A DNA stretch of 64,000 nt from Puniceicoccaceae bacterium (GCA_028285755.1 JANQOQ010000006.1:62001-126000), one strand, 5' to 3'. Positions 17,365-56,416 are shown, counted from the stretch's first letter. The notes: generated by a model not told the origin, from the sequence alone. Numbers and translations: made by a program.

Positions 17365-17428
17365 AGAAATGATGTGCTAAGAATACCAGCCAAGTATATA
17401 GCAAAGCGCCCCCTAAGCATATCAGCCA

Positions 17429-25543: not shown

Positions 25544-25562
25544 ATCAAAAAATTACATTATT

Positions 25563-26717: not shown

Positions 26718-27819
26718 AAGCAAATCGGCGATTACCGATGCGAACGGTTCATTGATTATAGATGAAGTCGAGATATATGAACCTCTGGCAGGCGAAGTGC
26801 TGGTGCGAATTATGGCATCGGGAATATGCCATACTGATTACGATTCACTCTCCTGGGGAAAACGTATAATCATGGGCCACGAAGGCTCGGGTATTGTTGA
26901 GCAGGTGGGTGATGGCGTCCAAAACGTAAGGGTGGGCGATCGGGTGATCCTGAATTGGGCAATCCCCTGTAATGAGTGTTTTCAATGCATGCATGGTAAC
27001 CACAATATATGCGAGAATAACAACCAGGTGACGGAGCGGATTCCCGGTTACGGCTCGGCTCATTCAGGAGCCTCAACATATAAGGGTACTCCGATAGGCA
27101 GATCTTTCAATATCGGAACTCTAAGCAATTATACGGTGGTTAAAAAGGAAGCGGTGGTACGTATTCCGGATGATGTACCCTTTGCGTCTGCATGTATTGT
27201 GGGTTGTGGGGTTATGACAGGGTATGGCTCTGTGGTGAATTGCGCGAAAGTGGAAGCAGGTAGCTCAGTCGCCGTCATCGGAACAGGTGGTGTAGGGCTG
27301 AATGTCATACAGGGTGCACGAATATCCGGTGCTGCAAAAATCATTGCTGTGGATATCAGTAAAAACCGGCTTAACCTCGCGAAAAAATTTGGAGCCACCC
27401 ATGCTGTTTTGGTCTCCAAAAAGGATGCGGGTTTAAACCAGGCATCTGAGCAAATCAAGGCGCTCTGCGCAAGAAGGGGCACTGATTACGCGTTTGAATG
27501 TACGGGCATACCGGCGTTAGGTGCAGCCCCATTGGCCATGATTCGCAATGGAGGTATGGCAGTACAGGTATCGGGGATCGAGCAAACAATCGAAATTGAT
27601 ATGAATCTTTTTGAATGGGACAAACTATACCTCAATCCCCTTTATGGCGGTGCTAATCCGGAATACGATTTTCCCAAATTGATCGAGCTGTATAAGCTGG
27701 GTGCCCTGAAGCTGGATGAGCTGGTTACCCAAACCTATAGCCTGGATGACCTGAATGTTGCAATCGAGGATATGCTTAATGGCAAGAATGCGAAGGGCGT
27801 TATCCTAATGGAGCATTAA
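26707..27819 (+). CDS. Zinc-dependent alcohol dehydrogenase (class III / formaldehyde-dehydrogenase-like)
   Basis: 370-residue medium-chain dehydrogenase. Catalytic-zinc cysteine in SGICHTD, G-H-E in MGHEGSG, four-cysteine structural zinc lobe (C-N-E-C-F-Q-C then C about 8 residues on), NAD-binding GTGGVGLNV. The overall pattern matches class III ADH and S-(hydroxymethyl)thiol dehydrogenases. It overlaps the P450 gene by 11 bases and precedes the esterase by 3 bases. Inferred role: oxidise the thiol adduct of formaldehyde released by the P450, or oxidise the sugar itself. The thiol (glutathione or other) is not identified. Confidence 0.9.
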   Translation: MPIKSKSAITDANGSLIIDEVEIYEPLAGEVLVRIMASGICHTDYDSLSWGKRIIMGHEGSGIVEQVGDGVQNVRVGDRVILNWAIPCNECFQCMHGNHNICENNNQVTERIPGYGSAHSGASTYKGTPIGRSFNIGTLSNYTVVKKEAVVRIPDDVPFASACIVGCGVMTGYGSVVNCAKVEAGSSVAVIGTGGVGLNVIQGARISGAAKIIAVDISKNRLNLAKKFGATHAVLVSKKDAGLNQASEQIKALCARRGTDYAFECTGIPALGAAPLAMIRNGGMAVQVSGIEQTIEIDMNLFEWDKLYLNPLYGGANPEYDFPKLIELYKLGALKLDELVTQTYSLDDLNVAIEDMLNGKNAKGVILMEH

Positions 27820-27822
27820 TCT

Positions 27823-28635
27823 ATGGACGATTCATACTTCAGAACGATTGAAACGGGCGATTTGGACCTTGGTATAGGCACATTGCAGATGATCACGGTA
27901 AAAAGCCCGTCGCTTAAGATGAGGTCTGATATCAGTCTCTACATTCCCGGTAACACACAACTCCCTGCTAATACACCCGTGGTTATCTTGTTGCATGGGG
28001 TCTACGGTTCGCATTGGGCATGGTTTCTAAATGCCAGAGCGCATGTCACTCTGCATAACTTGATCGAGTCAGGAAGAGTGCCCCCCATGATTCTTGTGGC
28101 CCCCTCCGATGGCTTATGGGGAGACGGAAGTGGTTACCTGAAGCATAAATCCAAAGACTTTGAAAAGTGGATCGTGGATGATGTACCCCGGGCAGTATCT
28201 GAAGTCACAGGCAATGCACCTGACGCTTCCCATTACATCGCCGGTTTATCGATGGGGGGATTCGGTGCACTGAGGTTAGGGGCAAAATATTGCCATCTAT
28301 TTAGGGCGTTTGCCGGGTTATCATCGATCACCGAATTTAGCCAGCTTACTCAGTTTATTGAAGAACCCCTCGGGGATTATGCACAAACTGATAATCCATC
28401 TGTCATCGAGGAGATTAAACAGCACTCTAAACAATCCCTTAAATTTCAATTTAACTGCGGTTTGGGCGACCCTCTAATTGAAAACAATAGGCGACTCCAC
28501 CATCAGCTAAACGAGCTGGGTATAGAGCATACCTACCATGAATATCAAGGTTCACATGAGTGGCCTTACTGGAGCGCGCATATTGGAGAAACCCTTCAAT
28601 TTTTCGCTGAGCATGAGAGCGTTCGGGAAAACTAA
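27823..28635 (+). CDS. Esterase-D-type alpha/beta hydrolase (S-formylthiol hydrolase-like)
   Basis: 270 residues, no signal peptide. Oxyanion segment L-L-H-G-V-Y-G, nucleophile serine in GLSMGGFG, aspartate in GDPLIENN and histidine in G-S-H-E-W-P-Y-W, the arrangement of the esterase D/antigen 85 family. In formaldehyde oxidation an enzyme of this family (S-formylglutathione hydrolase) splits S-formylglutathione to formate and thiol. Placement 3 bases after the zinc ADH gene supports that role. A sugar- or acyl-esterase role is the alternative. Confidence 0.82.
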   Translation: MDDSYFRTIETGDLDLGIGTLQMITVKSPSLKMRSDISLYIPGNTQLPANTPVVILLHGVYGSHWAWFLNARAHVTLHNLIESGRVPPMILVAPSDGLWGDGSGYLKHKSKDFEKWIVDDVPRAVSEVTGNAPDASHYIAGLSMGGFGALRLGAKYCHLFRAFAGLSSITEFSQLTQFIEEPLGDYAQTDNPSVIEEIKQHSKQSLKFQFNCGLGDPLIENNRRLHHQLNELGIEHTYHEYQGSHEWPYWSAHIGETLQFFAEHESVREN

Positions 28636-34521: not shown

Positions 34522-37500
34522 TTGAAATTTTCTTACCCTATGCTTCATAATATAAGTAATCACCAAAAACTAAAGCATCTGTTAAATGAACCGTGCCAGG
34601 AGGTAGATGGAGTTGAATCCATAAAACCCTTCATTATGCATTTAACTTCTAGTAGTGATATCTGGGCTTTTATTGGGAGTAATCATTGCATCACGGCAGG
34701 TCGTAAGAACCCGGATCATGCTCTATTTCCTTACTATACTCAGGATAAACTTATCGATATGGTAGGTTCATGCGGCTCTTTGAGCGTAATCCGTTACCAG
34801 GATGAAATTTGGATCCCTTTTGAAGATTCACTGAATCCACCAACACATATCAGAAGATCTGTCATAAAGAGCATTAGCGGTACTAAGATCGCACTGTCTG
34901 AGTACAACGATCTCTTGAATTTAAAAATTGTGGTTACCTGGACTTCATCCAAACGATTTGGAATATTGCGCAATGTTCAATTGATCAACACCGGTATCAA
35001 TGTGATTCGACTGAGTCTGATCGATGGAATACAGAACATACTACCGCCATCCGTAGATGAACAATTTCAAAATCGGTTTTCAAATTTAGCCGATGCCTAC
35101 AAATATTCTGAGCGACTCGAAGATCAGTTAGCGGTTTATTCTTTAAGTTCGATACCCACGGATCGTGCCGAACCCAGTGAAAGCTTAAGTGCCACGACTG
35201 TATGGTCTGCGGGTGTATTGGTAACTAAACACTACCTGTCTAAGGACTCTATTGGGAAATTTGTATCCAATCAGCCCAGAGAATCGGATAGTGAGCTTCG
35301 GGGACGGCCGGGCTGTTACCTGATCGAATCTGAGTTGGAGATTGAGCCCGGATCTCTGCAATCCTGGTGGATCATCGCAGATGTTGATCAGTCGATCAGC
35401 GCAATTGAGAATCTACACGATTGGTTAGGAGAAGCCGATAACCCAATTCGGGAGCTGGAACAGTCTATCGATAGAAACACAACAGTATTAAATACTATGG
35501 TTTCTCAAGTAGATGGTTTTCAAAAATCGCATTCAATACGGGCCTCCTGGCGTCACTATTCCAATAGCCTGTTTAATATTATGCGGGGCGGAACTTTTCT
35601 CAAAGGCTATGAAGTGCCCACAGATGACTACAGAAAGCATGTTCAAAGGTCCAATAATGCCGTGTATAATAAAAATATCGAATGGCTTCAATCGCTGTCG
35701 TCGGGCATTTCGATCAAAGAATTAAAAGCCCTAACCCAAACAGTGGATGCCGATCTATATCGAATCACGAACGAATATCTGCCGCTCACTTTCTCTCGTC
35801 GCCATGGTGACCCAAGCCGCCCATGGAATCGCTTTAACATAGACTTAATTGATGAAGCAGGGAATCAAAGATATGCTTATCAGGGAAACTGGAGGGATAT
35901 TTTTCAGAATTGGGAGGCGTTGCTGCACAGTTATCCGCTATTTGCCAAATCAGTCATTTCGCGTTTTCTAAATGCGACAACCTGGGATGGCTATAACCCA
36001 TATCGAATCTCTCAAAATGGAATCGATTGGGAAAAGATTGAGCCTGAAGCCACCTGGTCAAACATTGGCTATTGGGGTGACCACCAGATTATCTATTTGC
36101 TGAAACTACTCGAGTTTTATCAAAAAGTAGATCCGCAGGGGATAGCTGAGGAGCTCAATCACAATGACTTCGTGTTTGCTCAGGTTCCTTATAGAATTAA
36201 GTCGATTGAGCATATTAAGCAAAATGCAGCGGACTCGATAGAATATGACGACGTTTGGTCAGCAGAAATTGATCGTGCAACAAAAGCCCTGGGGTCGGAT
36301 GGGCAACTACTGCATGACCCAAATGGCAAGATACGGTATGCCACTTTTTGCGAGAAGTTATTTATACCTTTATTAACCAAAGTTTCAAATTTCGTGCCCG
36401 GTGCAGGTATTTGGATGAATACGCAAAGACCCGAATGGAATGATGCAAATAATGCACTGGCGGGTTATGGGTGCTCAGTGGTTACCTTGGGTTATATGCT
36501 GCGGTATACACGGTTTTTGAAGCAGTTAATTGACGATTCCAGAATTGAAGCATTCTCATGGCATAAGGACTTGGTGGTTTTCATTCATTCACTTAAGAAA
36601 GCTTTGGATGCTCCTATCTCTCCTCAGGATAATTATCTAAGAGCACTTCTGCTAAATCAATTAGGCGAGGCCGGCAGTTTATATCGAAATTTGTATTATG
36701 ATAAATCTATCAGCGACCAACAAGTGACTATCGATGCCTCAACACTGTTGGAAGTGTTAAGTGGGTTTGAAAATCACATGGTGGCCACTCTGCAGGCGAA
36801 TCTCCGCGAGGATGGGCTTTATCATGCATATAATACCATAAACATTCAGGACGAGGATTCCGTCTTACTCAAGCGATTGCCTCTCATGCTAGAGGGGCAG
36901 GTTTCCATTATGTCCAGTAGCCTCTTGAGTGTTTCTGAATCCCTTAAACTAATTAAAAGTCTCAGGCAGAGCGAACTTTACCGTGAGGACCAAAAAAGTT
37001 ATCTGCTTTATCCAGATCAGGCTGCGAAAAGTGTCCTGGATAAAGGGCTGGTTATGAGAGATAACCTGAAAGATTGCCCCCAAATTTTGAAAGAAATCGA
37101 TGCAGGCAAATCTCCCTTTATCTCTAAGAGTAAAAACGGGAATTTGCGCTTCAAATCCAATTTCAGAAACCTGGAAGTATTAAAAAGCTATGCCGAGCAA
37201 CTTGATAAAGACTCTCTATATCTAAGCACGCTTTATAATACTTATGAAGAAACCTTCAACCATGCGGAATTCATAGGGAGATCCAGATCCTTTTTTGCTT
37301 ATGAAGGATTGGGCAGTATCTATTGGCATATGGTTTCGAAGCTTGTTCTGGCAGTGCAGGAAGTGGTTATAAAGAATGAAAACCAAAAATCCGCAGATTT
37401 AGATGAATTGGTTGAGCTTTTCCGTGAGCTCAAGGAGGGGCTTGGAGTGAATAAGGACCCACAAAGCTATGGGGCATTCCCTACTGACGCCTATTCTCAT

Positions 37501-37923
37501 ACTCCTGCGCATGCAGGTGCTCAACAGCCGGGCATGACCGGTCAGGTAAAGGAAGACATTATCATAAGGCTTGCAGAATTAGGGATAAGGATCACTGATG
37601 GCACCATCCAATTCAATGATACACTCCTCGATCGAAGCGAGTTGCTGGATGAAAGTGATGTATTTACATATTTTGATGAACTGGGAAACACCCGCTCCGT
37701 AGAACTGGAGCCTCATTCACTTGCATATACCTTTTGTGGGCTGCCAATAATCCTACAACATTCAGAAATTCAGGATTATCCTCAAATGTCGATTAAATTT
37801 AAGGAAAACGAAGTCACCAAAGATTTACTTTCACTTACTAAATCTGAATCAAAAGCGATATATGATCGTAATCAGGAAATTCAGAGTATAACCATAAAAT
37901 ACCCCATTAACCCCAAAGTATAA
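34522..37923 (+). CDS. Large GH94/GH149-like glycoside phosphorylase candidate (clan GH-Q)
   Basis: 1133 residues, no signal peptide, so probably cytoplasmic. Seen: an N-terminal beta-rich region (about 1-280) and a long helical part that reads as an (alpha/alpha)6 barrel. P-E-W-N-D-A-N-N-A-L at 637-646 resembles the W-N-D motif carrying the catalytic Asp of cellobiose phosphorylase (GH94); D641 is the candidate general acid. Known: GH149 enzymes of clan GH-Q are 1,3-beta-oligoglucan phosphorylases of about this size. Inferred: it splits imported beta-1,3-gluco-oligosaccharides with phosphate, because it leads an operon with a GPH sugar symporter (4-base gap) and a GH16 laminarinase-like protein. 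It could also be an unrelated large cytoplasmic hydrolase; confirm by profile search. Confidence 0.55.
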   Translation: MKFSYPMLHNISNHQKLKHLLNEPCQEVDGVESIKPFIMHLTSSSDIWAFIGSNHCITAGRKNPDHALFPYYTQDKLIDMVGSCGSLSVIRYQDEIWIPFEDSLNPPTHIRRSVIKSISGTKIALSEYNDLLNLKIVVTWTSSKRFGILRNVQLINTGINVIRLSLIDGIQNILPPSVDEQFQNRFSNLADAYKYSERLEDQLAVYSLSSIPTDRAEPSESLSATTVWSAGVLVTKHYLSKDSIGKFVSNQPRESDSELRGRPGCYLIESELEIEPGSLQSWWIIADVDQSISAIENLHDWLGEADNPIRELEQSIDRNTTVLNTMVSQVDGFQKSHSIRASWRHYSNSLFNIMRGGTFLKGYEVPTDDYRKHVQRSNNAVYNKNIEWLQSLSSGISIKELKALTQTVDADLYRITNEYLPLTFSRRHGDPSRPWNRFNIDLIDEAGNQRYAYQGNWRDIFQNWEALLHSYPLFAKSVISRFLNATTWDGYNPYRISQNGIDWEKIEPEATWSNIGYWGDHQIIYLLKLLEFYQKVDPQGIAEELNHNDFVFAQVPYRIKSIEHIKQNAADSIEYDDVWSAEIDRATKALGSDGQLLHDPNGKIRYATFCEKLFIPLLTKVSNFVPGAGIWMNTQRPEWNDANNALAGYGCSVVTLGYMLRYTRFLKQLIDDSRIEAFSWHKDLVVFIHSLKKALDAPISPQDNYLRALLLNQLGEAGSLYRNLYYDKSISDQQVTIDASTLLEVLSGFENHMVATLQANLREDGLYHAYNTINIQDEDSVLLKRLPLMLEGQVSIMSSSLLSVSESLKLIKSLRQSELYREDQKSYLLYPDQAAKSVLDKGLVMRDNLKDCPQILKEIDAGKSPFISKSKNGNLRFKSNFRNLEVLKSYAEQLDKDSLYLSTLYNTYEETFNHAEFIGRSRSFFAYEGLGSIYWHMVSKLVLAVQEVVIKNENQKSADLDELVELFRELKEGLGVNKDPQSYGAFPTDAYSHTPAHAGAQQPGMTGQVKEDIIIRLAELGIRITDGTIQFNDTLLDRSELLDESDVFTYFDELGNTRSVELEPHSLAYTFCGLPIILQHSEIQDYPQMSIKFKENEVTKDLLSLTKSESKAIYDRNQEIQSITIKYPINPKV

Positions 37924-43526: not shown

Positions 43527-44921
43527 TCAGTAGGCGAGAGGATCGTATTCGGGGTTTAGCTCAGATGGAAGGTCGGCTTTCGTTTCAGTTAACCAATCTT
43601 TGAGCAGATCGTATAACTCCCGGGCCTTTTGGGGCTTCGCTTTTAGCAAGTTGGTAGTTTCGCCAATATCCTCTTTCAAATTATAGAGTTCAATAGCGGC
43701 ATCCTCATAATAATAGTGTAGCTTCCAATCGCCCTTGCGGACTATGCTGCAGGGCCGTGAGCGAAAGAAACGATCCCGCTGCTCATCCACAACATTCGGG
43801 TAGGATTGCAGGTAAGCGGGAAAATGCCAGAATACTGCACGATTCGGGTCAATCTCAACTCCTTTCAAATGCGGCAAAAGGCTAATCCCATCCAATACTT
43901 GATCTACTTGTTTGATACCCAAAGCTTCTGCAATTGTAGGATAAATATCCACACCGGTTACAATCGCATCGGATTCGCCGGCAGGCTGTGAGACTCCCCT
44001 CCAGCGAATCACGAGAGGCACCCGGATACCACCCTCATAATAAGTGCCTTTGTAGCCCTTGAGTGGATGCATATCTGTAGCCGGACCATACCCTCCGTTA
44101 TCCGAAAATAGAATGACCAGTGTATCCTCCTCCAAATCGAGCGCTTTAAGCATGTCCAGTACTTTGCCGACCCCTTCATCCATCGCTTGCACCATGGTCG
44201 CATAGTTTACGTGATTGTGCAGTGAACCCGGTTCTTTGCTTTCGTATTTAGAAACATGTTCCTTTTTGGGATGCAGCGGAGTATGGACAGCAAAGTAGGT
44301 TAAGTAGAGCAACCAGGGGTTATCCTGATTCTGCTTAATAAAGGAAGCTGCTTCGGCGGATATCCGGTCGGTCAAGTATTCACCCTCAGGCGCGTCCTCG
44401 AGACCGGGAGCATTCGGGTGCGGCGGATAATAGCCGCGGGGAGGACTCCCGCTATGGGTTCCACCAATATTGATATCGAAACCATAAGGCAGCGGATCAT
44501 CACTCAGATGCCACTTACCCATTGAGGCAGTTGCATAACCCTGCTTTTTGGCAAGCTCTGCAAATGTAGTGATTTCTCTATCCAAAACATCGGTGCCGGG
44601 TACATGGAGCAGGCGACGATGCTCGGATTCACCGCGTGGGCCAGTACCCACATTGTAAACTTTATGCCTGGGGGTATATTGACCTGATAATAAAGACGCT
44701 CTCGCCGGGGCGCAATTTGCTGAAGCCGAATAGGCATTAGTGAAATAAATGCCTTCACTGGCCAGTCGATCAATATTGGGGGTTTCATAAAAATCAGAGC
44801 CCATATAGCCAACATCGCGCCACCCCCAATCGTCCACAACGATGAGCAAAATATTCGGTTTATCGGACGCTTTGAGCGTAGTAGTGAGCAAAAGGAGTAG
44901 TGTTACATTCAGTATTTTCAT
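43527..44921 (-). CDS. Secreted type I sulfatase (C-A-P-A-R)
   Basis: 464 residues with signal peptide 1-18, V-V-D-D-W-G-W metal site, maturation site C70-A-P-A-R, GKWHLS, the F-A-V-H-T-P histidine and SDNGG pair. Last gene of the 50-43.5 kb operon; its start overlaps the stop of the cytochrome c/PHM-like gene by 4 bases (ATGA), so they are translationally coupled. Needs FGE from elsewhere. Substrate unknown. Confidence 0.94.
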   Translation of the reverse strand: MKILNVTLLLLLTTTLKASDKPNILLIVVDDWGWRDVGYMGSDFYETPNIDRLASEGIYFTNAYSASANCAPARASLLSGQYTPRHKVYNVGTGPRGESEHRRLLHVPGTDVLDREITTFAELAKKQGYATASMGKWHLSDDPLPYGFDINIGGTHSGSPPRGYYPPHPNAPGLEDAPEGEYLTDRISAEAASFIKQNQDNPWLLYLTYFAVHTPLHPKKEHVSKYESKEPGSLHNHVNYATMVQAMDEGVGKVLDMLKALDLEEDTLVILFSDNGGYGPATDMHPLKGYKGTYYEGGIRVPLVIRWRGVSQPAGESDAIVTGVDIYPTIAEALGIKQVDQVLDGISLLPHLKGVEIDPNRAVFWHFPAYLQSYPNVVDEQRDRFFRSRPCSIVRKGDWKLHYYYEDAAIELYNLKEDIGETTNLLKAKPQKARELYDLLKDWLTETKADLPSELNPEYDPLAY

Positions 44922-47158
44922 AGGGATTGCATTAAAAATTCACGCCTTAATTTCTTCAGAGTTTCGAGTTCGGGAGAGTCTTCGGGATAGAACAGCTGAT
45001 TGATTGCATGTTCGCAAATCTGATAAGCACTGTAAGACCCCATCGTTTCATTCACCAGCTGAATCAGCATTTCTCTATATAAGAAACGATCCAATTTATT
45101 GAAGAGATCGTAGTATATATAATCATCAGGGCTGGTTATAGTCAGAAAATCCTGGATACTGTCTTTGAGTTTCTCACTACGATTCAATGTTTGGTAGCTC
45201 AAAATGAGCTCTTTATGCGGCTCATGCTGTTTTGGGGCAAGGCTTACCGCCTGTTGAAAATCACCCAATGCTTCAGCGGCTTTATTCTGCAAATTGAAAA
45301 TACGGCCCCGATATAAATGGGCAACCGCAAGATAGTTTTGCGCAGGCGAACCCGGTTCCTCTACCTGACTGACCTCAATAATCTCTGAGAGGAAAGTCAG
45401 CGATTCTATGTAATTATTCTGCTCAAAAAGAATGACCGCATATTCCACTTTTAATACCAGGCTATCAGGGAGCTCCGTGACTCCTTTTTCTATCCACAAA
45501 AATGCTTCAGCGGGTTGGTTAATACTTGAGTATAGGGCTGCCAGCTGGAGATAGGCATTTTCAATATCTGGATCGCTATCAATCAATTCTTTCAATATGT
45601 GCGCAGCCCTTTGCACATCACCCTGATTAGCTGCGATTTGCGCTAATAGCAGCTTTGGAGCGACTAACCGGGGGTTGTGATTCAAGGCAAGCTCAATTCG
45701 CTTTTCTGCTTTCACAATATCTCCAAACTGATAATCCAAAACACCCAGTTTGTAGTGGGCGGAAGCAAAGCTTTCATCCAGTACGAGCGCACGCTCGTAG
45801 AGACTGTAAGCACTTTGCAACAAATTCTGCTGCTCCTGATACGTGGCGAGATAGTATAGATAATTTGCCTCCCCACCTGCTGCGTCCACATCATAAGCGA
45901 TCTGGGCCTTTTCAAGGGTTCTCAGATCTGTTTCAGTCTCAACGATTACCTGAAAAACCGCCTCAGCCATTTCATCTTCAGATCTCCAGCCGCCTACTAC
46001 ACGCCGCGCAGGGTGGTTCGGGTTAAAAATATTCTCGTCGGAATTATCATATGTATAATCCATGACAAGCTTTGAGCCTGCAGGCACTCCAATCGGTTCC
46101 TTAAAACGATAGTCGCTTTGCCAGTTGAAGTCCCATTGCGGAATCCTAAGCACTGGGATCTTCTGACCTTCGCCAGTAATCGCAGAAAGCTCCATACTCT
46201 TCCCCAGATAATGCGCATGCGGGTATACCCCAATAATCTGGATATCTACCGGTACGTCCATCGTCTCATAAACCCGATAATTTTGCTCACCGGCAGGAAT
46301 ATCGATATCGAAGTTGCGAAGCTGCAAAATCATACTCAACAACTCGGGCGGTTTTTCACTAAAGTAGATGCCTACCTCGGGATCAATGGCTTCCGGTTTA
46401 CCGGTAGGCAGCATGTGTAATTGCAGCACAAGATCATCCCCGGGAAATAATTCCCAGGCGGTACCGGGATAGCATTCGTAAGGTACCTGGCCGGGTGTCC
46501 ACCCAATAAAATGCCCTGAAGGATTCTGGGCAGTTCCGATGCCCATACCGTCAAAACCCGGCTCCGGATCCAGCAGTTCCTGACTGCGCGAATGCTCGGA
46601 CTTGTCGATAGTGATGAGTGCGTGATGAATCGCCAGGCGAGTATTGGGGCGGATATCTAATGCGCGCACATAGCGCTTAACCTCTATTGGAAGCGGGATT
46701 ACAAAATTGCGGTAAACATCAATGCCTTGCTCCGAAAGGCTATAAGGCTCAGGAAGCTTTAATACCAGATCAGGCTCACCCAAAGCCCACTTATTATTAA
46801 ACACCGGGTATTTATAATCTTCAGGAGGTAATGATGAAGACGACTCCTGCTGGGCTGCCCACTCTCTAATGAGACTAATTTCATCGGTTGATAAAATGCG
46901 CTCGCCAATGATCCCGACTGAATAGTGAGGGTCCGTTTGCCAGGGTGGCATATAACCGGATTGAACCACTTCGCTCATTTGGCGGGCACGTTTGGTAATA
47001 TCCTCATAAGTTATCAGGCTGAAAGGACCGATGCCATCAGGATTATGGCACGTAGAACAGTTTTGATGAATGATAGGCGCAATCTCGTTAAACGCTATTT
47101 CAGCCGGAATCTGCAAATACGATCCTCCCGCAAATAGCAATAGACTGAGTTGTTTCAT
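44918..47158 (-). CDS. Cytochrome c / PHM-like copper monooxygenase / TPR protein
   Basis: 746 residues. Seen: short signal peptide (1-19); c-type heme site C34-S-T-C37-H38 with M70 in M-P-P-W as likely axial ligand; a PHM-like region about 120-400; then several TPR helices (about 430-740). All six copper ligands of peptidylglycine hydroxylating monooxygenase have counterparts at near-equal spacing: H178, H179, H248 (in LVLQLH) and H314, H316, M397 (in PHAH and DEM). Known: PHM hydroxylates C-H bonds with copper, oxygen and an electron source. Inferred: a periplasmic oxidase fed by its own heme. It is coupled to the downstream sulfatase gene and follows the GH43-like gene by 27 bases, so a glycan-linked substrate is possible. 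No assigned function is known to me for this architecture. Confidence 0.85.
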   Translation of the reverse strand: MKQLSLLLFAGGSYLQIPAEIAFNEIAPIIHQNCSTCHNPDGIGPFSLITYEDITKRARQMSEVVQSGYMPPWQTDPHYSVGIIGERILSTDEISLIREWAAQQESSSSLPPEDYKYPVFNNKWALGEPDLVLKLPEPYSLSEQGIDVYRNFVIPLPIEVKRYVRALDIRPNTRLAIHHALITIDKSEHSRSQELLDPEPGFDGMGIGTAQNPSGHFIGWTPGQVPYECYPGTAWELFPGDDLVLQLHMLPTGKPEAIDPEVGIYFSEKPPELLSMILQLRNFDIDIPAGEQNYRVYETMDVPVDIQIIGVYPHAHYLGKSMELSAITGEGQKIPVLRIPQWDFNWQSDYRFKEPIGVPAGSKLVMDYTYDNSDENIFNPNHPARRVVGGWRSEDEMAEAVFQVIVETETDLRTLEKAQIAYDVDAAGGEANYLYYLATYQEQQNLLQSAYSLYERALVLDESFASAHYKLGVLDYQFGDIVKAEKRIELALNHNPRLVAPKLLLAQIAANQGDVQRAAHILKELIDSDPDIENAYLQLAALYSSINQPAEAFLWIEKGVTELPDSLVLKVEYAVILFEQNNYIESLTFLSEIIEVSQVEEPGSPAQNYLAVAHLYRGRIFNLQNKAAEALGDFQQAVSLAPKQHEPHKELILSYQTLNRSEKLKDSIQDFLTITSPDDYIYYDLFNKLDRFLYREMLIQLVNETMGSYSAYQICEHAINQLFYPEDSPELETLKKLRREFLMQSL

Positions 47159-47185: not shown

Positions 47186-48700
47186 CTATTTTGATAACAT
47201 CAAAGGCGCATCCCGATCGCAATACAGGTTCCCGTCATCGTCAATCTTGAGCTCGGCCATTTGCAGAACGCTTCTTCGGTTATAAAGCGACTGATTAAAA
47301 ATGCGGATGCCACTTTCATAGACTCGCCAGGGCTCCACATGATAAAAGATGAAAGCACGATCCTCAATAACTGCCACACTGCAATGTCTGGCCATATTGC
47401 CGTCTAAGAGCCGGTTGCCGCCTTCTCGCAGAATGGTTCCCTGAAAGTTCCAGTAGTTGCCGTCTTCACTCCAATAGACAAAGAGACCCAGATGAGGATC
47501 GGTGATCAGCCAATACTTATCCTGCCAAAAGAAAACATAAGGAGCTTCTTCGAAACCAGAGCCCGTCACGCTTTTGTTGAAAACATCACTTTGCGAAAAT
47601 CCATGAGTTTCCCAACTCTTAAGATCTTTCGACCGCATATAATATAATTCGTTCTTACCACCTCCAAGCGGTTTGCCCTTAAACCATAAGTGAAACCCTT
47701 CCTCATTTTTAAAGATGCTGGCATCAATAGTATCCATGTTACTGTCATGCATGAGACCATGCCTCAGCCAGCCCTGAACCGGATCGTCCATCGGCGCGCT
47801 GTAATGCACTATAAACCCCTGACCGCCCCATGCCCCCTTAATAGGCAGAAGATCTGGTTTCCAGGTAACAAACATGTGCAAACGTCCGTCATGCTTAATA
47901 ATAGCCGGAGCCCAATAAGTGGAACGCGCATAGGGCGAATTGTTGGGTTCTCCCAAGTTACAATATCCCAGAAACTCCCACTCCATTAAGTCCGGAGAAC
48001 GTATAACCCCCAGCGGCGTACCCAGAAAGGTGTTTTGCATATGGGGGCGACGGGTTGTATAGTAAATGTAGTAGTGTTTATCCCATGAGTTGTATACGAT
48101 TTCGGGATCACAGGAACCGTGAGTGTTCGGCTCTACGAATAGTGCTTCTTGGTCAGCATATTTCCTGAAGTCCTCGAGAGCTCCCTTGGATTTTAAATTC
48201 TCGATTATATTGAGTATGCTCGATTCGATATCATCACGGTTGGTGTTAAGCTCACAGAGGGTGATGAAGTGCGGATCGGTTAAGAGCTTCAAGAGCTCAT
48301 TTACTTTTTCCAAGCGTTCCTGCTGAATATCATGAAGCAATCTATCAGGGTTTAGCCGGATCAAACCAATGCGACTTTTCGGAAAGAGTTTTCGTAATTG
48401 TGCGAGGATTTTATCAATTCCGACTACGATGCTTTCTGCATCTGAATCCTCTAGATCGGCTACGCCAATATGGAGCAACAGGATGTCAGGTTTGGCCCTA
48501 TCATATTCCAGATCTTCAAGGCACGAATGCAGATCATCTATTCGTTCGGCTGCGATTAAGGTCTTTTCATGGATATTGCCCTCATGAGTAATATGCTCAA
48601 ATAATTCATCACCCAGCAGTAACACCTCAGAGTGTTTTTTGGCATCTGCAGTAAAACCTAAGCTTAAGCAAAGACAAAATTGGACTAACAGATACCGCAT
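47186..48700 (-). CDS. Pseudo-SGNH domain fused to GH43-like beta-propeller
   Basis: 504 residues, signal peptide 1-20. The N-terminal domain (about 25-165) resembles an SGNH/GDSL esterase but the catalytic serine position is glutamate (G30-D31-E32 instead of G-D-S) and G-x-N-D is G-V-A-D (79-82), so it is probably inactive or substrate-binding. The C-terminal part (about 190-500) is a five-bladed propeller of the GH43/GH117 group: D198 (S-C-D-P-E-I-V), D326 (T-I-D-A-S-I-F) and E385 (G-F-E-E-A-P-Y) fit the base, pKa modulator and acid. Such enzymes remove arabinose, xylose, galactose or anhydrogalactose residues. It is 6 bases after a sulfatase gene and precedes the copper protein. Confidence 0.78.
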   Translation of the reverse strand: MRYLLVQFCLCLSLGFTADAKKHSEVLLLGDELFEHITHEGNIHEKTLIAAERIDDLHSCLEDLEYDRAKPDILLLHIGVADLEDSDAESIVVGIDKILAQLRKLFPKSRIGLIRLNPDRLLHDIQQERLEKVNELLKLLTDPHFITLCELNTNRDDIESSILNIIENLKSKGALEDFRKYADQEALFVEPNTHGSCDPEIVYNSWDKHYYIYYTTRRPHMQNTFLGTPLGVIRSPDLMEWEFLGYCNLGEPNNSPYARSTYWAPAIIKHDGRLHMFVTWKPDLLPIKGAWGGQGFIVHYSAPMDDPVQGWLRHGLMHDSNMDTIDASIFKNEEGFHLWFKGKPLGGGKNELYYMRSKDLKSWETHGFSQSDVFNKSVTGSGFEEAPYVFFWQDKYWLITDPHLGLFVYWSEDGNYWNFQGTILREGGNRLLDGNMARHCSVAVIEDRAFIFYHVEPWRVYESGIRIFNQSLYNRRSVLQMAELKIDDDGNLYCDRDAPLMLSK

Positions 48701-48706
48701 TCTTTA

Positions 48707-50083
48707 CTACTGATTGCCCCAGGATACGACAGGGGAGGGCACATGTGCATCCTTGAAAATCGCTTCTGCCTGAGCAACGATATCCGGATGGTTACTGGCG
48801 ATGTTATATCGCTCACGCACATCCTTATCGAGATTATAAAGCTCAATCGCATAACCCCCTTTATCCATAAAGAGCTGCACGGCTTTCCAATCTCCGAAAC
48901 GCGTTGCCCGTTTTCCTCCTTGCTCATAAAATTCCCAGTAGAGATATTCGTGGATTGCCTGCTCTTCAGAATTTCCGAGCAGTGTGGGCAGGTAGCTGAT
49001 GCCGTTGATATTCTCTGGCACAGGTATACCGGCAATTTCACAGGCTGTGGGCAAGAAATCCCAGAAGGCGGAAACATGATTGCTGCTTGAGCCTGCTTGT
49101 ACCACGCCTTTCCAGGATACTACGTGGGGAACGCGTATACCGCCCTCGTACAGGTCTCTCTTTTCTCCCCGCAACATTCCATTGCCATTAAATAACTCGG
49201 CGTTATGGCCACCGGCGCTATGTGGGCCGTTGTCACTCGCGAAAAAGATGACTGTGTTTTCAAGAATACCCAAATCTTCAAGCTTCAATAAGATCTGCCC
49301 AATCTCCCAGTCTGCCCGGGCAATCATACCGGCCATAGTCGCAACCGGCTCTTCTTCGTATCGATAGTGCGCGTTTTTTGCATTAGGCACTTCCTTCCAA
49401 ATGCCACGATACGGAGCCTTGAAACGCTCTTCGGCCCAAAGCCCTGCATGGGGTAACTGCATCGAATAATGGAGAAAAAAGGGTCCCTTTTTTTCTGATT
49501 CGATGAAGCCTAAGACTTCTTTCAGAAGGATGTCCTGACTGTAGGTCTCTCCATTTTTGCCTTTATTGTCCGGATATTGAATGGCTTCACCATTACGATA
49601 CATCTTCTCCGGGAAATAGCGATGGGCTCCACGATGCGTGAGGAATCCAAAAAAGTAATCAAATCCATTATCCGCAGGGTTGCCAGGTTTACAGATACAA
49701 CCCGTGCTTGCTTTGCCGATCATACCCGTGGCATAGCCGGCTTGCTTTAAATAACTGGCGACCGTCATATCCAAAGGGTCTTTACGCAGTTGTATATCCT
49801 GATTCGCGCGAACATAGGTTTGCCCGGTATGCTGGCCGGTGAGCAGGCAAGAGCGCGAAGGAGCACAAACCGTACTGCCCGAATAATGCTGACTAAACCG
49901 CATACCCGAAGCGGCGAGTTGGTCGATGTTCGGAGTTTTAATAATGCGCTGCCCTTGGTAACCGACGTCCGCATAGCCGAGATCGTCTGCTAATATGTAT
50001 AAAATATTGGGAGAACTTTTGGATGCACTTGCCAGTAACAGGACGCTGAAAATTGAGGTGAGAATAATGGATAACCTATGCAT
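48707..50083 (-). CDS. Secreted type I sulfatase (C-A-P-S-R)
   Basis: 458 residues, signal peptide about 1-20, L-A-D-D-L-G-Y metal site, maturation site C73-A-P-S-R, GKASTG region, histidine in Q-L-P-H-A-G, SDNGP pair (ASDNGP). First gene of the four-gene operon after the TBDT terminator. Lysine is present in the G-K motif, but the usual following W-H is replaced by A-S-T-G-C, a clear departure from the four other sulfatases in this window. Confidence 0.92.
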   Translation of the reverse strand: MHRLSIILTSIFSVLLLASASKSSPNILYILADDLGYADVGYQGQRIIKTPNIDQLAASGMRFSQHYSGSTVCAPSRSCLLTGQHTGQTYVRANQDIQLRKDPLDMTVASYLKQAGYATGMIGKASTGCICKPGNPADNGFDYFFGFLTHRGAHRYFPEKMYRNGEAIQYPDNKGKNGETYSQDILLKEVLGFIESEKKGPFFLHYSMQLPHAGLWAEERFKAPYRGIWKEVPNAKNAHYRYEEEPVATMAGMIARADWEIGQILLKLEDLGILENTVIFFASDNGPHSAGGHNAELFNGNGMLRGEKRDLYEGGIRVPHVVSWKGVVQAGSSSNHVSAFWDFLPTACEIAGIPVPENINGISYLPTLLGNSEEQAIHEYLYWEFYEQGGKRATRFGDWKAVQLFMDKGGYAIELYNLDKDVRERYNIASNHPDIVAQAEAIFKDAHVPSPVVSWGNQ

Positions 50084-50263: not shown

Positions 50264-53200
50264 TTAGAAACTAAAGGTTGAGCGAAGTGTCCAGGTGCGG
50301 CCTTCGCGCCAGATAGCAGAACGTACGCTACCATCCGGTTGAGTGCCAACAGCGACAACTTCACCATCGCTTAGGGCATTGCGGATATTGAGCTGAAGCG
50401 CCCAATCAATTTTGCCATCCCAGATTTTACGTTTGTAACCTACCCAAAGATCCACCCGAGTGATTGCATCGTCTGTGTAAGGATTGTCCAGATCGAAGAT
50501 CTCTACCTGTTGGCCATCAATCTCAGCCACTTTAACTGGATAACCGATCGCTTTTTCATCTTCCCAACGATAGGCACCTCCTACATTGAATCCCTTAAAC
50601 TTGGAATCATCAGCAAAACGATAGTTGGTGATAACATTGGTGCGCCATTCACGCAATTCAGGAACAAGCTGCCCATCCCTGGCAAGATTTGCATTCAGGG
50701 TGTTCAATAGCGTATCGTATACACGTATATTTACCGGCTGATCCGACTCATCCGCAATCAGGAAACCGGGACCTCCGGGAGTCGTATCCGTCCATTCATC
50801 AAATCGATATGTAAGATACTCACGTGTTGCGGGCAGTAGATTACTGCGTACGGCTTCCTGCTGGGCAATATTCCAGGATATGCGCCAATTCGATGTCGGG
50901 TTAAAGATCATGTCGATTTCACGACCCTTGGACAGGGTGCTTTGAGTATCATTCAGAGCAAAGGGAGCTCCATCCTGTTGTACATTAAAGCCACTTTCAG
51001 TATTGCCTTCTACAATACGCCATCCGGTTAAATCCTTATAGAACTGAGGCGGACCTTGATAACCGCTTGCTGCAATCGCTTCAGGTGAATTATAGCGGAT
51101 GATACGGCGATCGGTTTCAGTGAGGAATCCTGGATATCCCGCACGTACGTTATCTGATGTGGTTTCGAACTCATTATAGCGGATCACAAACTTTCCATCC
51201 AATAGATTGATTGTAAATCCATAGTCCTCAGTGGTACCACCCGGAGGTGTCAGAAGGTTCCCAAATATATCGATTGAAGGCGACGCAATTTGGAAATTCT
51301 CCGACTCACCCCAATGGAATGAAATATCGATACCATCGGGTAATGGCACAAAATCAGGTGTGTGCACTACAAGACCATAAGATCGTGTGATGGCCTCGAA
51401 AGGTTCTTCAGAAACTTCTTCATTCAAGCGCAGCTCTTCAAGGTCAATGAAGTCGAATTCATTGCGCGGTGTGTTTGAAGCAAACGACTTCACGCGATCC
51501 TTACGATAACCAAAAGTTCCGACGATCCATTCTGTATCAAACAGATATGCCTGATGTACGTATGCATAAGAGTCAGTGATCTGACGATTTACCGTTTTGC
51601 CATGAATACTGTTCCAGAAGTTATCATCATAGTCCGGACCCACAAATACGGGTGTATGTGTATAGTTTAACCAGGTATCGGATGGACGGTCATAATAATA
51701 ATGAGTAACGGGCTGGGGCGTGATGGTATCGCGCACTCCATAGATATTGCCTCCCTGGGGTCCGGATGCATTTGCAAAACTATCGCCCACCCATACGCGT
51801 GTGCGCATATTCGTAGGGCCACCGTTTAGATCCGTATTTCCAATAACGGTTTGCGCAAAATCAACGTCTCCATGGTTTCGTGCACTGTAGCTATTGGTAT
51901 CGCGCATAAATGTCTGCGCAAACACCGTACCTGAATGTCTGCCAAACCAATTGATCCACTGGGTTTCTGCATTTTTGAAATCGATTTCAAAAAAGGCGGT
52001 TCCACGGGATACCTCACGCTCGCCAATATTGGTCTGACGTTGATTTTGAGCAGCAATGAAGGGACGACCAAAGTTCGGGTTCGGATCTCCCCAATTCGTG
52101 GTCGTGTTAATATCTATATTAATGTTGTAACCCCGTGCGCCTTGGAACATATCAAACCAGCTGCGCTCAATACGCTCGTTGGAGTAAGTGAACTCATAAC
52201 CGGCTGAACCCCAGTCGAATGTGAATATCTGCTCCATGCTGAAGTTAAATACATCAAAGGTTTCCCATTCGTTCTTATTGGGACCATCGAGCATATTTTC
52301 CACCCAATCGAATACACTGCGATCCAGGAGCTCTTCATCCCCCCAGAATGAGCCGAATTCGATGCCATTGGCTGCTGCAGTTGGGGACTGATACCATTGC
52401 TCGCCTTTCGTGATCGATACCTGGTGGGTCCGAAAGCGTCGGCCTCCTCCCGGAAATGTAGTTTCCCAGGCGCGCGCAGAATAAAGCACTTCGCCTGTAT
52501 TACCATCGATTTGGTAGCCGGGCTGTCCAAACCATTCGCCCGGTGCGCGCACGATATCCCGGTCAATACGACCAAACTCAATATTCGCCGGATCATGAGT
52601 CACTTTGTTGAAGGCCGGGTGCCACCAGCGGGTAAAAGTATCACGCGGTGCATTGGGGCGTGGACGTCTTGCATCTACTTCACCACGCTCGTAACTGGCA
52701 CGAAATGTAACCCCTTCAAGCGGGTTAAATGTAACTGCAACCGTTCCTCGTTGAGTCTTGCTGTAAGAAGGATCCTGACGCCATTCGCGATCCTGATAAA
52801 CGCCCGCGACGCGAACCGCCAACATATCGTCTATAACGACCTTATTGATATCAAAATTTGCCCGATAGTTGTTAAAAGATCCAATACGAGCTGAAAATTT
52901 GTAGGCATCCCGATTGAGCCGTGCCTGAATGGTTTGGTGATTGATAATACCTCCGGGTGAACCCAGTCCGAATAGGGTGGAGTTCGGCCCGCGGTTCACA
53001 GCAACCCGCTCCACATTATAACCATCATAGACGATGCCTGTTGGCAGATAATTACGCGTGTTGTCCGCTCTTGCCAAACCACGGATACGGTTTGCATTTT
53101 GAGGATTACGGTTCTGACTGGTGAATGTAATGGTAGCAACACCATCGCCGCCTCCATAACTTCCATCCGGACCACCGGTTTCAATATTACCCAGGAAAGG

Positions 53201-53899
53201 GAGTAACTCAGACGGATTGTTGACATCAAGATCCGACATCAGCTCCTGGGTCGCGACTACGATTGAATTGGGCAAGTCACTGAGTTGGGTCTTAATACGG
53301 GTACCTGCAAGCGTATTGGTTGCAAAGTAACCCATCTCTTCGGTCGTTTCTACGACGAATGGAGAGAGCAACAGAACATCCTCAGTGTCCTCTTCAGTCT
53401 GCGCCTCAAGGGGAGTCGTAAACGTAGTAACCAATACTGCGGCAAGGGTAGCCAGAAAACTCTGTTCAGCTTTTCTGGTAGAATTAATCGTTTTGGGATT
53501 TTTCATTTCCATTGTGTATGTTTCGTTTTGTAGTTCCGAATCATCGCTCATGGACTCAGAAAGTTCCGGCTCGCTCTTTGATATAGCAAAGGCGCCATTC
53601 GCTTTTGCCTGCACAAAAGAAAGTCCAGTTCCCTCTAACATCAGATAAAGTGCTCTTGATGGAGTGTAATAACCATGCAAAGCATTGGTTATTACTCCCT
53701 CCACAAAAACATCTGAAAAGATAATTTGAATCCCACTTTGTTTCGCCGCCAGCTGCAGGTTTTCCCTGGCTTGACCTTGAGGTATTTGAAAGTGGAATTC
53801 GCTTTCTTCTATCTGATCCTCCGAACCCCAAAGACCGATTATCGTACATACGAAGAAAGCGCTCAATAGCGCTCCCCGAATCAAAGCCGGATTCGGCAA
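50264..53899 (-). CDS. TonB-dependent receptor with STN domain (start uncertain, likely one-base frameshift)
   Basis: 1211 residues as read from a TTG at 53899. Signal peptide, then STN domain about 35-105 (F-Q-I-P-Q-G-Q-A-R-E-N-L), linker, a second signal-peptide-like segment (about 132-166, ending P-L-E-A-Q), TonB-box-like LLLSPFVVE, plug with NRGPNSTLFGLGSPGGIIN and a barrel ending in TLRSTFSF. Upstream there is an ATG at 53933 that is out of frame by one base: removing one A from the five-A run after it gives M-K-I-L-N-L-K-L-N-R-T in frame with the receptor. As written, TGA stops the frame upstream of 53926, so only TTG (or another rare start) is available. The ECF-type promoter at 53954-53990 fits a start at 53933. 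It pairs with FecR and sigma at 54-55.6 kb. Confidence 0.88.
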   Translation of the reverse strand: MPNPALIRGALLSAFFVCTIIGLWGSEDQIEESEFHFQIPQGQARENLQLAAKQSGIQIIFSDVFVEGVITNALHGYYTPSRALYLMLEGTGLSFVQAKANGAFAISKSEPELSESMSDDSELQNETYTMEMKNPKTINSTRKAEQSFLATLAAVLVTTFTTPLEAQTEEDTEDVLLLSPFVVETTEEMGYFATNTLAGTRIKTQLSDLPNSIVVATQELMSDLDVNNPSELLPFLGNIETGGPDGSYGGGDGVATITFTSQNRNPQNANRIRGLARADNTRNYLPTGIVYDGYNVERVAVNRGPNSTLFGLGSPGGIINHQTIQARLNRDAYKFSARIGSFNNYRANFDINKVVIDDMLAVRVAGVYQDREWRQDPSYSKTQRGTVAVTFNPLEGVTFRASYERGEVDARRPRPNAPRDTFTRWWHPAFNKVTHDPANIEFGRIDRDIVRAPGEWFGQPGYQIDGNTGEVLYSARAWETTFPGGGRRFRTHQVSITKGEQWYQSPTAAANGIEFGSFWGDEELLDRSVFDWVENMLDGPNKNEWETFDVFNFSMEQIFTFDWGSAGYEFTYSNERIERSWFDMFQGARGYNINIDINTTTNWGDPNPNFGRPFIAAQNQRQTNIGEREVSRGTAFFEIDFKNAETQWINWFGRHSGTVFAQTFMRDTNSYSARNHGDVDFAQTVIGNTDLNGGPTNMRTRVWVGDSFANASGPQGGNIYGVRDTITPQPVTHYYYDRPSDTWLNYTHTPVFVGPDYDDNFWNSIHGKTVNRQITDSYAYVHQAYLFDTEWIVGTFGYRKDRVKSFASNTPRNEFDFIDLEELRLNEEVSEEPFEAITRSYGLVVHTPDFVPLPDGIDISFHWGESENFQIASPSIDIFGNLLTPPGGTTEDYGFTINLLDGKFVIRYNEFETTSDNVRAGYPGFLTETDRRIIRYNSPEAIAASGYQGPPQFYKDLTGWRIVEGNTESGFNVQQDGAPFALNDTQSTLSKGREIDMIFNPTSNWRISWNIAQQEAVRSNLLPATREYLTYRFDEWTDTTPGGPGFLIADESDQPVNIRVYDTLLNTLNANLARDGQLVPELREWRTNVITNYRFADDSKFKGFNVGGAYRWEDEKAIGYPVKVAEIDGQQVEIFDLDNPYTDDAITRVDLWVGYKRKIWDGKIDWALQLNIRNALSDGEVVAVGTQPDGSVRSAIWREGRTWTLRSTFSF

Positions 53900-54031: not shown

Positions 54032-55069
54032 TTAAATGTAGAGGTATATTCCTTGCGAATCTTCCCGATGTTGGATTCCCATCGTAATTTCAAGCAATTC
54101 AAGAAAATCATCCAGATTATCCAGACGAATTAAAATAGTCATCGTCAGCTGTTTTATAGCTTCGTCTTCAACGATAATGGGCTTCTGACCTTCAAAGCGC
54201 ATAAACTCAGCGACGATTTCTTCAATGGGTGCAGAAACCATTTCAATGATTTTGTTTTTCCAGGAAAATTGATCATCCAGTTCACTTTTAGTAAACTTTA
54301 TGATTTCAATATCGTCATTCGGACTATTCTGAGTCACTTTTTGGCCTGCGATTAATCGTATCGGTGATCTTTCAGGTGTACTTTCCACATGATTCGTTTC
54401 ATCAGCAGAGATGCTTTCGTCGACATCAACAATCCCTTCGGTAACGTATACTTCCCAGGTAAGCTCATCCTGCTTTACGGAAAAAGCAGTCCCTACTGCA
54501 GTAACCCGGCCACTGGGTGCTTTTACAATGAAAGGCCTTTCTGCATCACTTACGACATTGAAATAAGCCTGACCATGAAATATCTCAATATCTCTTTGGT
54601 TTTGAGTATACTCTACTTTTAACCGACTTCCTTGCTTCAGATAAAACGAAGAGCCATCTTCCAAAAAATGCCTTTCATTATTCTCAGCAAAATACTCCAC
54701 CAATTCGGCGCGTGGCTGTTCTTTAACCGAAACTGTAATCTGAGAAAAATAGACAAAACCAATCGCTAAAATAGCAGCGAGCCCGACTATAGGATACGTA
54801 AGTGCCTGCTTCAATTTCTTAGGTTTTTCGAACAAGTCCGCATTCGGCTCACTACTGTATTTGGGTTTCCAATCCTCGAGCGGATCGAATGTCCCCCAAA
54901 TGACGTTTTGCTCAAAATAACAATCCTCGTTCGAGGAATCTTCCTTTAACCATTGCTGGAATTCCAATTCTTCGCTTTGCGTGAGGCCACGTTCATGCTT
55001 AGCAACCCACAAGCTCGCTTGCTTTTTCTGCTTCTTTGAGAATTCCCAATTATGTTTATGCTTTTCCAT
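54032..55069 (-). CDS. FecR-family anti-sigma/signal transducer
   Basis: 345 residues: cytoplasmic sigma-binding part (about 10-60; ASLWVAKHERGLT, EFQQWLKEDSSNEDCYFEQ), membrane helix about 93-110 (YPIVGLAAILAIGFVYF), periplasmic FecR domain (about 125-235; G-T-A-F-S-V, VTEGIVDVDES), C-terminal STN-like DUF4974-type module (about 265-345). It starts 10 bases after the sigma gene and is followed by the STN-TBDT gene after a 98-base gap holding a separate promoter. Same role as the FecR at 16 kb, but no stand-alone STN lipoprotein is present in this locus. Confidence 0.93.
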   Translation of the reverse strand: MEKHKHNWEFSKKQKKQASLWVAKHERGLTQSEELEFQQWLKEDSSNEDCYFEQNVIWGTFDPLEDWKPKYSSEPNADLFEKPKKLKQALTYPIVGLAAILAIGFVYFSQITVSVKEQPRAELVEYFAENNERHFLEDGSSFYLKQGSRLKVEYTQNQRDIEIFHGQAYFNVVSDAERPFIVKAPSGRVTAVGTAFSVKQDELTWEVYVTEGIVDVDESISADETNHVESTPERSPIRLIAGQKVTQNSPNDDIEIIKFTKSELDDQFSWKNKIIEMVSAPIEEIVAEFMRFEGQKPIIVEDEAIKQLTMTILIRLDNLDDFLELLEITMGIQHREDSQGIYLYI

Positions 55070-55079: not shown

Positions 55080-55598
55080 TTACTGTAGCTCCATGTAAAA
55101 CTTATTACACTTTCTTATCCCAATGGATATTTGTGTTTCGACTGTCTTTACAGATACACCGAGTTCTTCTGCGATCTGCTTTAGTGACATACCATAAACT
55201 TTGCGAAGTGTAAAAACCCGCCTACACTTTTTGGGCAAAGCCTGAATTGCTTCGTTCAATATATTAAGTTCTTCCTGCTGAATTAATTTATCAGGAATCG
55301 ATTTAGTATTGCTAGCGTAGGGAGTTGTTTCTTCTGCCAGCGATTCAAATTGAACGATACGCTTTCTTCTAATTATATCAACTGATAGATTATGAGCAGT
55401 GGAAAACAGGAACGCTTTGGGAGATTTCAGGGGGTTAATGCGATTACGCTTCACGGTTCGGATGTAGGACTCCTGAATGATATCCTCAACAGAATCGAGT
55501 ATAGAGAACCGCTTATTCAACCATGACCTTAACAGGTCTTCATGAGGCTGTATATGCTCATGAAACCAGTCCGCTTCGTTTTTATTAAATTTGGGCAT
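55080..55598 (-). CDS. ECF-family RNA polymerase sigma factor
   Basis: 172 residues with region 2 (about 30-75; V-E-D-I-I-Q-E-S-Y-I-R-T-V, S-P-K-A-F-L-F-S-T-A-H-N) and region 4 helix-turn-helix (about 115-165; MSLKQIAEELGVSVKTVET). It heads a sigma/FecR/TBDT unit. Its own promoter region carries the CAGGGT-N14-TCGTT pair found also before the TBDT gene, which fits a factor that activates itself and its receptor. Confidence 0.95.
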   Translation of the reverse strand: MPKFNKNEADWFHEHIQPHEDLLRSWLNKRFSILDSVEDIIQESYIRTVKRNRINPLKSPKAFLFSTAHNLSVDIIRRKRIVQFESLAEETTPYASNTKSIPDKLIQQEELNILNEAIQALPKKCRRVFTLRKVYGMSLKQIAEELGVSVKTVETQISIGIRKCNKFYMELQ

Positions 55599-55810: not shown

Positions 55811-56416
55811 ATGTGCCAATCCTACTCAAATAAAACCAAAAGAATGACAGTCACAAAAACTTCATGCAGATTAATAATGCCACTGCTATTGATCTTATGG
55901 TTACCTCTGCAAGCCATGGGTACAGTCAGGAACATGGAGGGTGAACAGATTGATCCATTTGATGATAATAGCCCTGCGCTCGTTTTCTATTTTGCTGCGG
56001 TTGAATGTCCCATAGCCAATCGATACCTACCCAGGATAAAGGAAATCTATGGCAGTCATGTAAATTCGGGATTTAAATTCTATGCCGCGTATACGGACGC
56101 GTCAGCTTCTATTGACAAAATCGAGCAGCATCGAATGGACTACAGTATTGAGTTGCCATTACTACTGGATTTTGAGCATGAACTCGTCAATCGCACCGGT
56201 GTAACTACAACACCTGAAGTAGCCGTATATTTTCGGGGCGAAAATGGTTATCTACAAGTTTACCGTGGAAGAGTTGATGACCGATATATTGATTTTGGAA
56301 AATTCAGAAAAAAGCCTACTCAAGAAGACTTAAAAGACGTTTTGCTCTCATTGGCAAACGGGAAACACGTCCAACCCTATACAACGAAATCTATAGGTTG
56401 TTATATAACCCGCTGA
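55811..56416 (+). CDS. Secreted redoxin/AhpC-like thioredoxin-fold protein
   Basis: 201 residues. AAAGGG at 55797-55802, 8 bases upstream, supports the start at 55811. A signal-peptide-like hydrophobic segment covers about 20-36. The redoxin core has F-A-A-V-E-C66-P-I-A-N-R-Y-L-P and a TTPEVAVYF segment typical of the thioredoxin cis-proline region. In Planctomycetota and Acidobacteriota this redoxin type with D-C-P-I-x-N-R-Y is often next to, or fused with, cytochrome c/PHM-like proteins, such as the one at 44.9-47.2 kb. A partner role is inferred from that. It is divergent from the sigma gene. Confidence 0.8.
   Translation: MCQSYSNKTKRMTVTKTSCRLIMPLLLILWLPLQAMGTVRNMEGEQIDPFDDNSPALVFYFAAVECPIANRYLPRIKEIYGSHVNSGFKFYAAYTDASASIDKIEQHRMDYSIELPLLLDFEHELVNRTGVTTTPEVAVYFRGENGYLQVYRGRVDDRYIDFGKFRKKPTQEDLKDVLLSLANGKHVQPYTTKSIGCYITR

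Follow-up and report, generated by a model that had tools for sequence, protein, structure and literature searches.

A 64,000-nt stretch of DNA from a Puniceicoccaceae bacterium that feeds on seaweed sugars (GCA_028285755.1 JANQOQ010000006.1:62001-126000; this whole stretch is referred to as the window, and its genes are read by coordinates on it) encodes a 746-aa protein that joins a c-type cytochrome domain, a predicted two-copper domain related to PHM (peptidylglycine alpha-hydroxylating monooxygenase), and a tail of TPR repeats. We found that the strong and specific genomic partner of this protein in the order Opitutales is one subfamily of TonB-dependent receptor (TBDT), and not, as its immediate neighborhood might suggest, a sulfatase. 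Because the gene stays beside this particular receptor subfamily, the data suggest a putative copper enzyme that oxidizes imported sugars or their side groups. In the more general form of a putative periplasmic copper monooxygenase, fed with electrons through its own heme and acting on the cargo of the receptor as a dedicated member of Opitutales nutrient-uptake loci, we regard this reading as evenly balanced between right and wrong.

The main gene starts with an ATG preceded by a GAGGAA-like ribosome-binding site (for coordinates of this and the other features, see Table 1). In the cytochrome c part, the sequence C34-S-T-C37-H38 and M70 within MPPW supply the two sequence motifs of a class I c-type cytochrome (CxxCH heme attachment and an axial Met) at the predicted heme site; the match to PF13442 is below the cut-off (E 0.0014), and no Pfam domain of the planctomycete-specific cytochrome c (PSCyt) type is found in the protein at E values up to 0.01. 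The PHM part carries H178-H179, H248, H314-A-H316, and M397 within S-E-D-E-M. A first-pass annotation of the window had described a heme protein with PHM-like copper ligands here, and all ten residues that it named lie where it placed them, with the ligand spacings of 69, 66, and 81 residues that it reported. It was likewise right about translational coupling to a sulfatase: the stop codon of the main gene overlaps the start of the downstream sulfatase gene by 4 nt (CTATGA), and a GH43-like gene (GH, glycoside hydrolase) lies 27 nt upstream.

PHM and DBH (dopamine beta-monooxygenase) are known from textbooks for their part in making neuropeptides and catecholamines in animals. The relationship of the main protein to PHM is distant but, by sequence comparison, established, since a profile built from the cytochrome-PHM region of 24 relatives retrieves rat PHM from the PDB (E~2e-9). 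The ligand motifs are aligned, with HH, H, and HxH falling in the main aligned segment and the EM motif in another one that by itself is weak. Taken alone, the protein scores 23.1 bits against PF03712 (Cu2_monoox_C), for which the cut-off is 23, and PF01082 gives a match in only one of the 24 relatives. Sequence homology and the order of the two mononuclear copper sites (HH...H / HxH...M), which together mark the Cu type II ascorbate-dependent monooxygenase superfamily (PHM/DBH), are both present, as is the SxDEM motif. Further marks of the superfamily are a double jelly-roll fold, its two copper sites lying some 11 A from each other, and hydroxylation that depends on copper and uses ascorbate. 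In contrast to PHM and DBH, the main protein is bacterial, has a fused cytochrome c and TPR repeats, and shows no sign of ascorbate. The conserved disulfides of the PHM catalytic core cannot form, because the PHM part has a single cysteine (in PYECYPG). In PHM, R240, N316, and Y318 hold the carboxylate of the peptidylglycine substrate; their counterparts are Y312, E399, and V401, and all three columns are variable in an alignment of 101 family members. The specificity of PHM is therefore not expected, and to judge from its residues the protein resembles PHM in metal chemistry but does not share its substrate recognition. Since the substrate residues of PHM are absent, peptide amidation was discarded as a function.

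The family was obtained in one pattern scan of a GTDB-based species-level collection, which gave at least 594 confirmed candidate stretches, of which the best 80 loci were taken. The pattern covered the W-D-F-x-W-Q motif and left out the metal ligands, so ligand conservation is not built into the sample. The best 80 loci belong to Verrucomicrobiota, Planctomycetota, Acidobacteriota, Gemmatimonadota, Armatimonadota, and Bacteroidota, except for one or two of other or unassigned lineage; a plasmid search gave no match. In the tree, the main protein is sister to a second copy in its own genome (G000 contig C2, locus L113), and both fall inside an Opitutales cytochrome c-PHM-TPR clade (bootstrap 100, SH-aLRT 100), while other branches of the family carry EF-hands or an N-terminal redoxin domain.

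Among the 101 aligned members, the heme ligands C34, C37, H38, and M70 are invariant, as is H316, and the other five copper ligands are kept in 99. The near-total retention of 10 metal ligands, together with variation at the substrate-contact positions, is as expected for an enzyme family with changing substrates. In two near-identical full-length relatives (L118:8269-10530 and L120:8937-11198, from G032 and G077), HH is replaced by RQ, and H248 and H314 each by R; the L052 gene is truncated and stops before the copper-ligand Met. The two relatives, which have lost most copper ligands, look like natural pseudo-enzymes; they adjoin a pyruvate:ferredoxin-oxidoreductase-like gene, and neither a TBDT nor a sulfatase is found there. 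Because they retain heme and TPR repeats after the ligand loss, the scaffold can evidently be kept without copper, which would fit a protein that is not an oxygenase at all but a heme-copper scaffold for electron transfer, sensing, or copper handling. We consider this quite improbable for the main protein: just two of the 101 members are degenerate, and these in different surroundings, whereas all others keep both mononuclear sites in the PHM order.

In the window, the (-) strand carries the cluster ECF sigma, FecR, TBDT, sulfatase, GH43-like, PHM, sulfatase; at its head, in divergent orientation, stands a thioredoxin-fold gene. The cluster has the makeup of a TonB-dependent carbohydrate utilization locus, that is, a TBDT co-located with glycan-degrading enzymes (here two sulfatases and a GH43, with ECF sigma/FecR), and this is repeated in L113 and L135. 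We counted neighbors within three genes of the enzyme gene in 17 different Opitutales loci with context on the contig; gene calls in the comparison loci were made by a simple script. A TBDT of the same broad family is present at 14 of the 17 (the window, L113, L114, L116, L034, L119, L121, L135-L140, and L176), against an expected rate of about 4-11% in genomes that were found to carry 12-77 TBDT plug domains each. On a simple background this gives P values of 5e-18 to 3e-11, and 10 of 12 loci remain positive after rough thinning for relatedness (P <= 2e-8); the background rates and E-values presuppose independence, which holds incompletely among related genomes. A link centered on the sulfatases, which was the first hypothesis, was demoted after sulfatases had been counted per genome: in six of seven genomes the count is 112 or more, and in the seventh (G125) it is 14. 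Since most of these genomes carry more than 100, sulfatase adjacency counts for little.

The pairing extends to the level of receptor subfamily. With the window TBDT as query against twelve genomes, there are 11 matches of at least 870 bits (48% identity or better), and the next match drops to 637 bits (36%). Nine of the 11 have a PHM-TPR gene at their locus on the same contig. One more, on G077 contig C273, appears to belong to a PHM locus as well, by synteny across a contig break, as the gene order there continues that of the PHM contig C172 in the manner of the syntenic G064 locus. The sole subfamily member found without a PHM gene nearby (G235 contig C63, L172:5518-9156) lies beside sulfatases and Gfo/Idh-type oxidoreductases. 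When L034 is included, 11 of the 12 rows in the receptor clade (SH-aLRT 100) are PHM-linked. Pairwise distances of ten PHM/TBDT pairs are correlated (r 0.49, Mantel p 0.007), and the receptor and enzyme trees are partially congruent: G064+G077+G098, G235a+G251b, and G251a+G235b are close in both, and G322 is placed differently.

The loci of the enzyme in Opitutales contain genes of sugar catabolism (GH2/GH43/GH59-like, GH29/GH28-like, GH78, sulfatases, and a sugar symporter). The cluster of the second copy, L113, runs sigma, FecR, small STN-like protein, TBDT, PHM, redoxin, sulfatase, melibiase-like, GH28-like, GH29, the redoxin gene overlapping the PHM gene by 4 nt. In G251, which represents a different family of Opitutales, the genes run GH2, sulfatase, TBDT, PHM, GH59-like, GH43, sulfatase, TBDT; its TBDT is 51% identical to that of the window and its GH43 49%. 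A third enzyme gene of G251 comes after a TBDT, and its locus also contains a GH78 rhamnosidase and a class II aldolase. A relative disrupted by internal stop codons (L125:6193-10124; G032:C1 near 3203338) stands beside a TBDT and several sulfatases and may be a decaying copy in a similar setting.

Several observations weigh against an enzyme devoted to glycans. Three clade members (L037, L117, and L141) have no TBDT within three genes. Sulfatases occur within three genes in 10 of 18 cases, against a background of 20-31%, an approximately twofold excess (P 0.001-0.03). The sugar genes vary from locus to locus and do not point to any one substrate. At the 14 loci of sister cytochrome c-PHM-TPR proteins from other phyla, neither a sulfatase nor a related TBDT is found close by, and among the 70 neighbors each Pfam family occurs at most twice (two carry CarboxypepD-type TonB receptors); in the other family branches nothing is recurrent among 89 neighbors. 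The glycan link is thus real but specific to the Opitutales clade. The first-pass annotation had placed the gene in a glycan context and had held that a survey of neighbors showing no link to glycan genes would count against it. The co-linear sulfatase and GH43 stand, with repeats in L113 and G251, but the specific partner is the TBDT subfamily; and since glycan neighbors recur only in the Opitutales clade, the absence of such a link does hold for the family as a whole.

The abundance of sulfatases in most of these genomes, the lack of a glycan link across the family, and the varying sugar genes would suit a copper monooxygenase acting on a non-carbohydrate small molecule that the TBDT imports or the enzyme encounters (a phenolic, methylated amine, peptide-like compound, or aglycone), with glycan genes near it only because the genomes are full of them, and the relatives PHM and DBH do act on peptides and amines. 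Most of the Opitutales loci examined nevertheless hold some carbohydrate-catabolic genes, and two distant loci both combine GH43, sulfatase, and TBDT with the enzyme; we consider the non-carbohydrate reading rather unlikely. A different doubt concerns the receptor itself, which would be uninformative about the substrate if it and the sigma/FecR pair served to import a copper chelate for loading the enzyme, on the model of methanobactin receptors. A copper enzyme requires copper, the ECF sigma, FecR, and STN-bearing TBDT occur together both in the window and at the second copy, and the nearest solved relatives of the window receptor are receptors for siderophores and pseudopaline, which also tells against a glycan cargo. 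However, a second FecR/TBDT set in the window (15963-21319) heads a sulfatase/GH5-like group, which indicates that glycan receptors are set up in this way here; relatives of the EF-hand type, and those linked to a redoxin, get by with no receptor of this kind; and TBDTs of other subfamilies lie beside the enzyme as well (L119, L121, L140, and L176). Import of copper by this receptor therefore seems very unlikely to us.

The thioredoxin-fold gene at the head of the window cluster, which the first-pass annotation had missed, is homologous to the redoxin gene inside the operon of the second copy (34% identity to the L113 redoxin). The partner protein is some 200 aa long; it has an active-site Cys-Pro region that is conserved, the motifs TPE and YRGRI[DN], and a C-terminal [IV]-G-C. 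Of 94 PHM genes across phyla, 20 have it as an adjacent gene, 12 carry it as a fusion in front, and two have it nearby. That the partner is adjacent in some branches and fused in others argues that it and the PHM-like protein work together, and its two conserved cysteines would fit a thiol-redox or copper-handling role. An assignment as SCO-type copper chaperone was dropped, as Pfam gives redoxin/AhpC-TSA.

If the enzyme acts on receptor cargo, the protein would be exported to the periplasm, where the partner could assist copper and heme loading, most likely by maintaining the loading or the reduced state of the copper or heme site. Electrons would pass from the respiratory pool to the c-heme and on to the two copper sites, the cytochrome taking the place of ascorbate, and the TPR tail may dock partner proteins. 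Through the TBDT, an oligosaccharide or a derivative of a sugar would reach the periplasm, the sulfatases and glycoside hydrolases would trim it, and with O2 activated at the HxH/M site the copper enzyme would hydroxylate a C-H bond of this cargo. PHM hydroxylates the alpha carbon of N-acylglycines and so begins an N-dealkylating chemistry. The closest analog of this would be O-dealkylation of methylated sugars. We hold as the most likely chemistry the release of an O-methyl or similar blocking group through hydroxylation of its alpha carbon. More tentatively still, and as a possibility we consider rather unlikely, the enzyme may represent a new oxidative glycan-processing class distinct from LPMOs (lytic polysaccharide monooxygenases) and P450s: a self-contained heme-to-copper PHM-type monooxygenase with a dedicated TonB receptor subfamily, which in the periplasm would free imported algal oligosaccharides of alkyl blocking groups.

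LPMOs are copper oxygenases of polysaccharide breakdown that are sometimes fed by a heme domain; they hold one copper in a histidine brace, whereas the PHM-type domain of the bacterial family has two separate copper sites. Redoxin-cytochrome c-PHM-like proteins of the same bacterial family have the core and ligands in common with the main protein but carry the thioredoxin-fold partner as an N-terminal domain, lack the TPR tail, and have neighbors that are not glycan genes. PSCyt proteins of PVC bacteria are found near sulfatases, with a suspected role in sugar breakdown (PMC5615132); their domains differ from those of the main protein, and the likeness is that of a cytochrome c near sulfatases in PVC bacteria. 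In reviews, PHM figures as a eukaryotic enzyme only (PMC7435645; PMC8812541). We found no study of, or experimentally assigned function for, bacterial PHM-like proteins in the open literature, a search that leaves subscription journals largely outside and so does not prove absence; the open papers on "copper type II ascorbate" all seem, from their titles, to deal with animals or fungi. The bacterial branch comprises at least 594 candidate stretches with metal ligands kept nearly throughout and a heme domain in place of ascorbate, and the receptor pairing, thioredoxin-fold partner, and natural ligand-less proteins make its function directly testable. If the proposal is true, algal polysaccharide breakdown, through which much carbon flows, could gain one more oxidative route, and the wider family would amount to hundreds of heme-wired PHM-type oxygenases with changing substrates.

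Table 1. Coordinates of the main gene, its predicted domains, and neighboring genes in the window
Feature	Position	Strand	Support and remarks
Sulfatase, CAPAR motif	43527..44921	(-)	PF00884 7.5e-57
Cytochrome c - PHM-like - TPR protein (main gene)	44918..47158	(-)	Open reading frame, 746 aa
TPR repeats, residues ~430-690	45089..45871	(-)	PF14559, PF07719, PF13428
PHM-like two-copper domain, residues ~120-405	45944..46801	(-)	PHM profile match, PF03712, ligand conservation
Cytochrome c domain, residues ~20-105; CSTCH 34-38, axial M70 in MPPW	46844..47101	(-)	Ligands invariant in 101 members
SGNH-like/GH43 fusion	47186..48700	(-)	PF04616 2.6e-15; GH43 part 49% identical to GH43 beside G251 PHM gene
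Second sulfatase, CAPSR motif	48707..50083	(-)	PF00884 5.1e-61
TBDT, STN and plug domains, PHM-linked subfamily	50264..53899	(-)	
FecR-type anti-sigma/sensor	54032..55069	(-)	PF04773
ECF sigma factor	55080..55598	(-)	PF08281, PF04542
Thioredoxin-fold partner, redoxin/AhpC-TSA type	55811..56416	(+)	PF00578 1.6e-7; divergent at operon edge

The GH43-like protein of the window has an N-terminal SGNH-like domain, which its G251 homolog lacks; the GDSL motif of this domain reads GDEL, so the catalytic serine seems to have been lost. Elsewhere in the window, a 1133-aa protein (34522-37923) with no Pfam match at E values up to 0.001 is encoded upstream of an MFS sugar transporter and a GH16.

The first-pass annotation had seen the copper enzyme as a second oxidative route next to a P450. 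That P450 sits outside the main gene's cluster, 18 kb from the main gene, in a separate set of ferredoxin, P450, zinc alcohol dehydrogenase, and esterase (25232-28635). A P450 O-demethylase system for 6-O-methyl-D-galactose has been described for porphyran (PMC10033563). It performs an oxidative step in algal galactan use and is a heme-thiolate, cytosolic enzyme of a protein family unrelated to that of the main protein. The set in the window, from a genome that probably belongs to Verrucomicrobiota (Opitutales), resembles this demethylation module of marine Flavobacteriia, and by this resemblance the organism probably meets methylated sugars.

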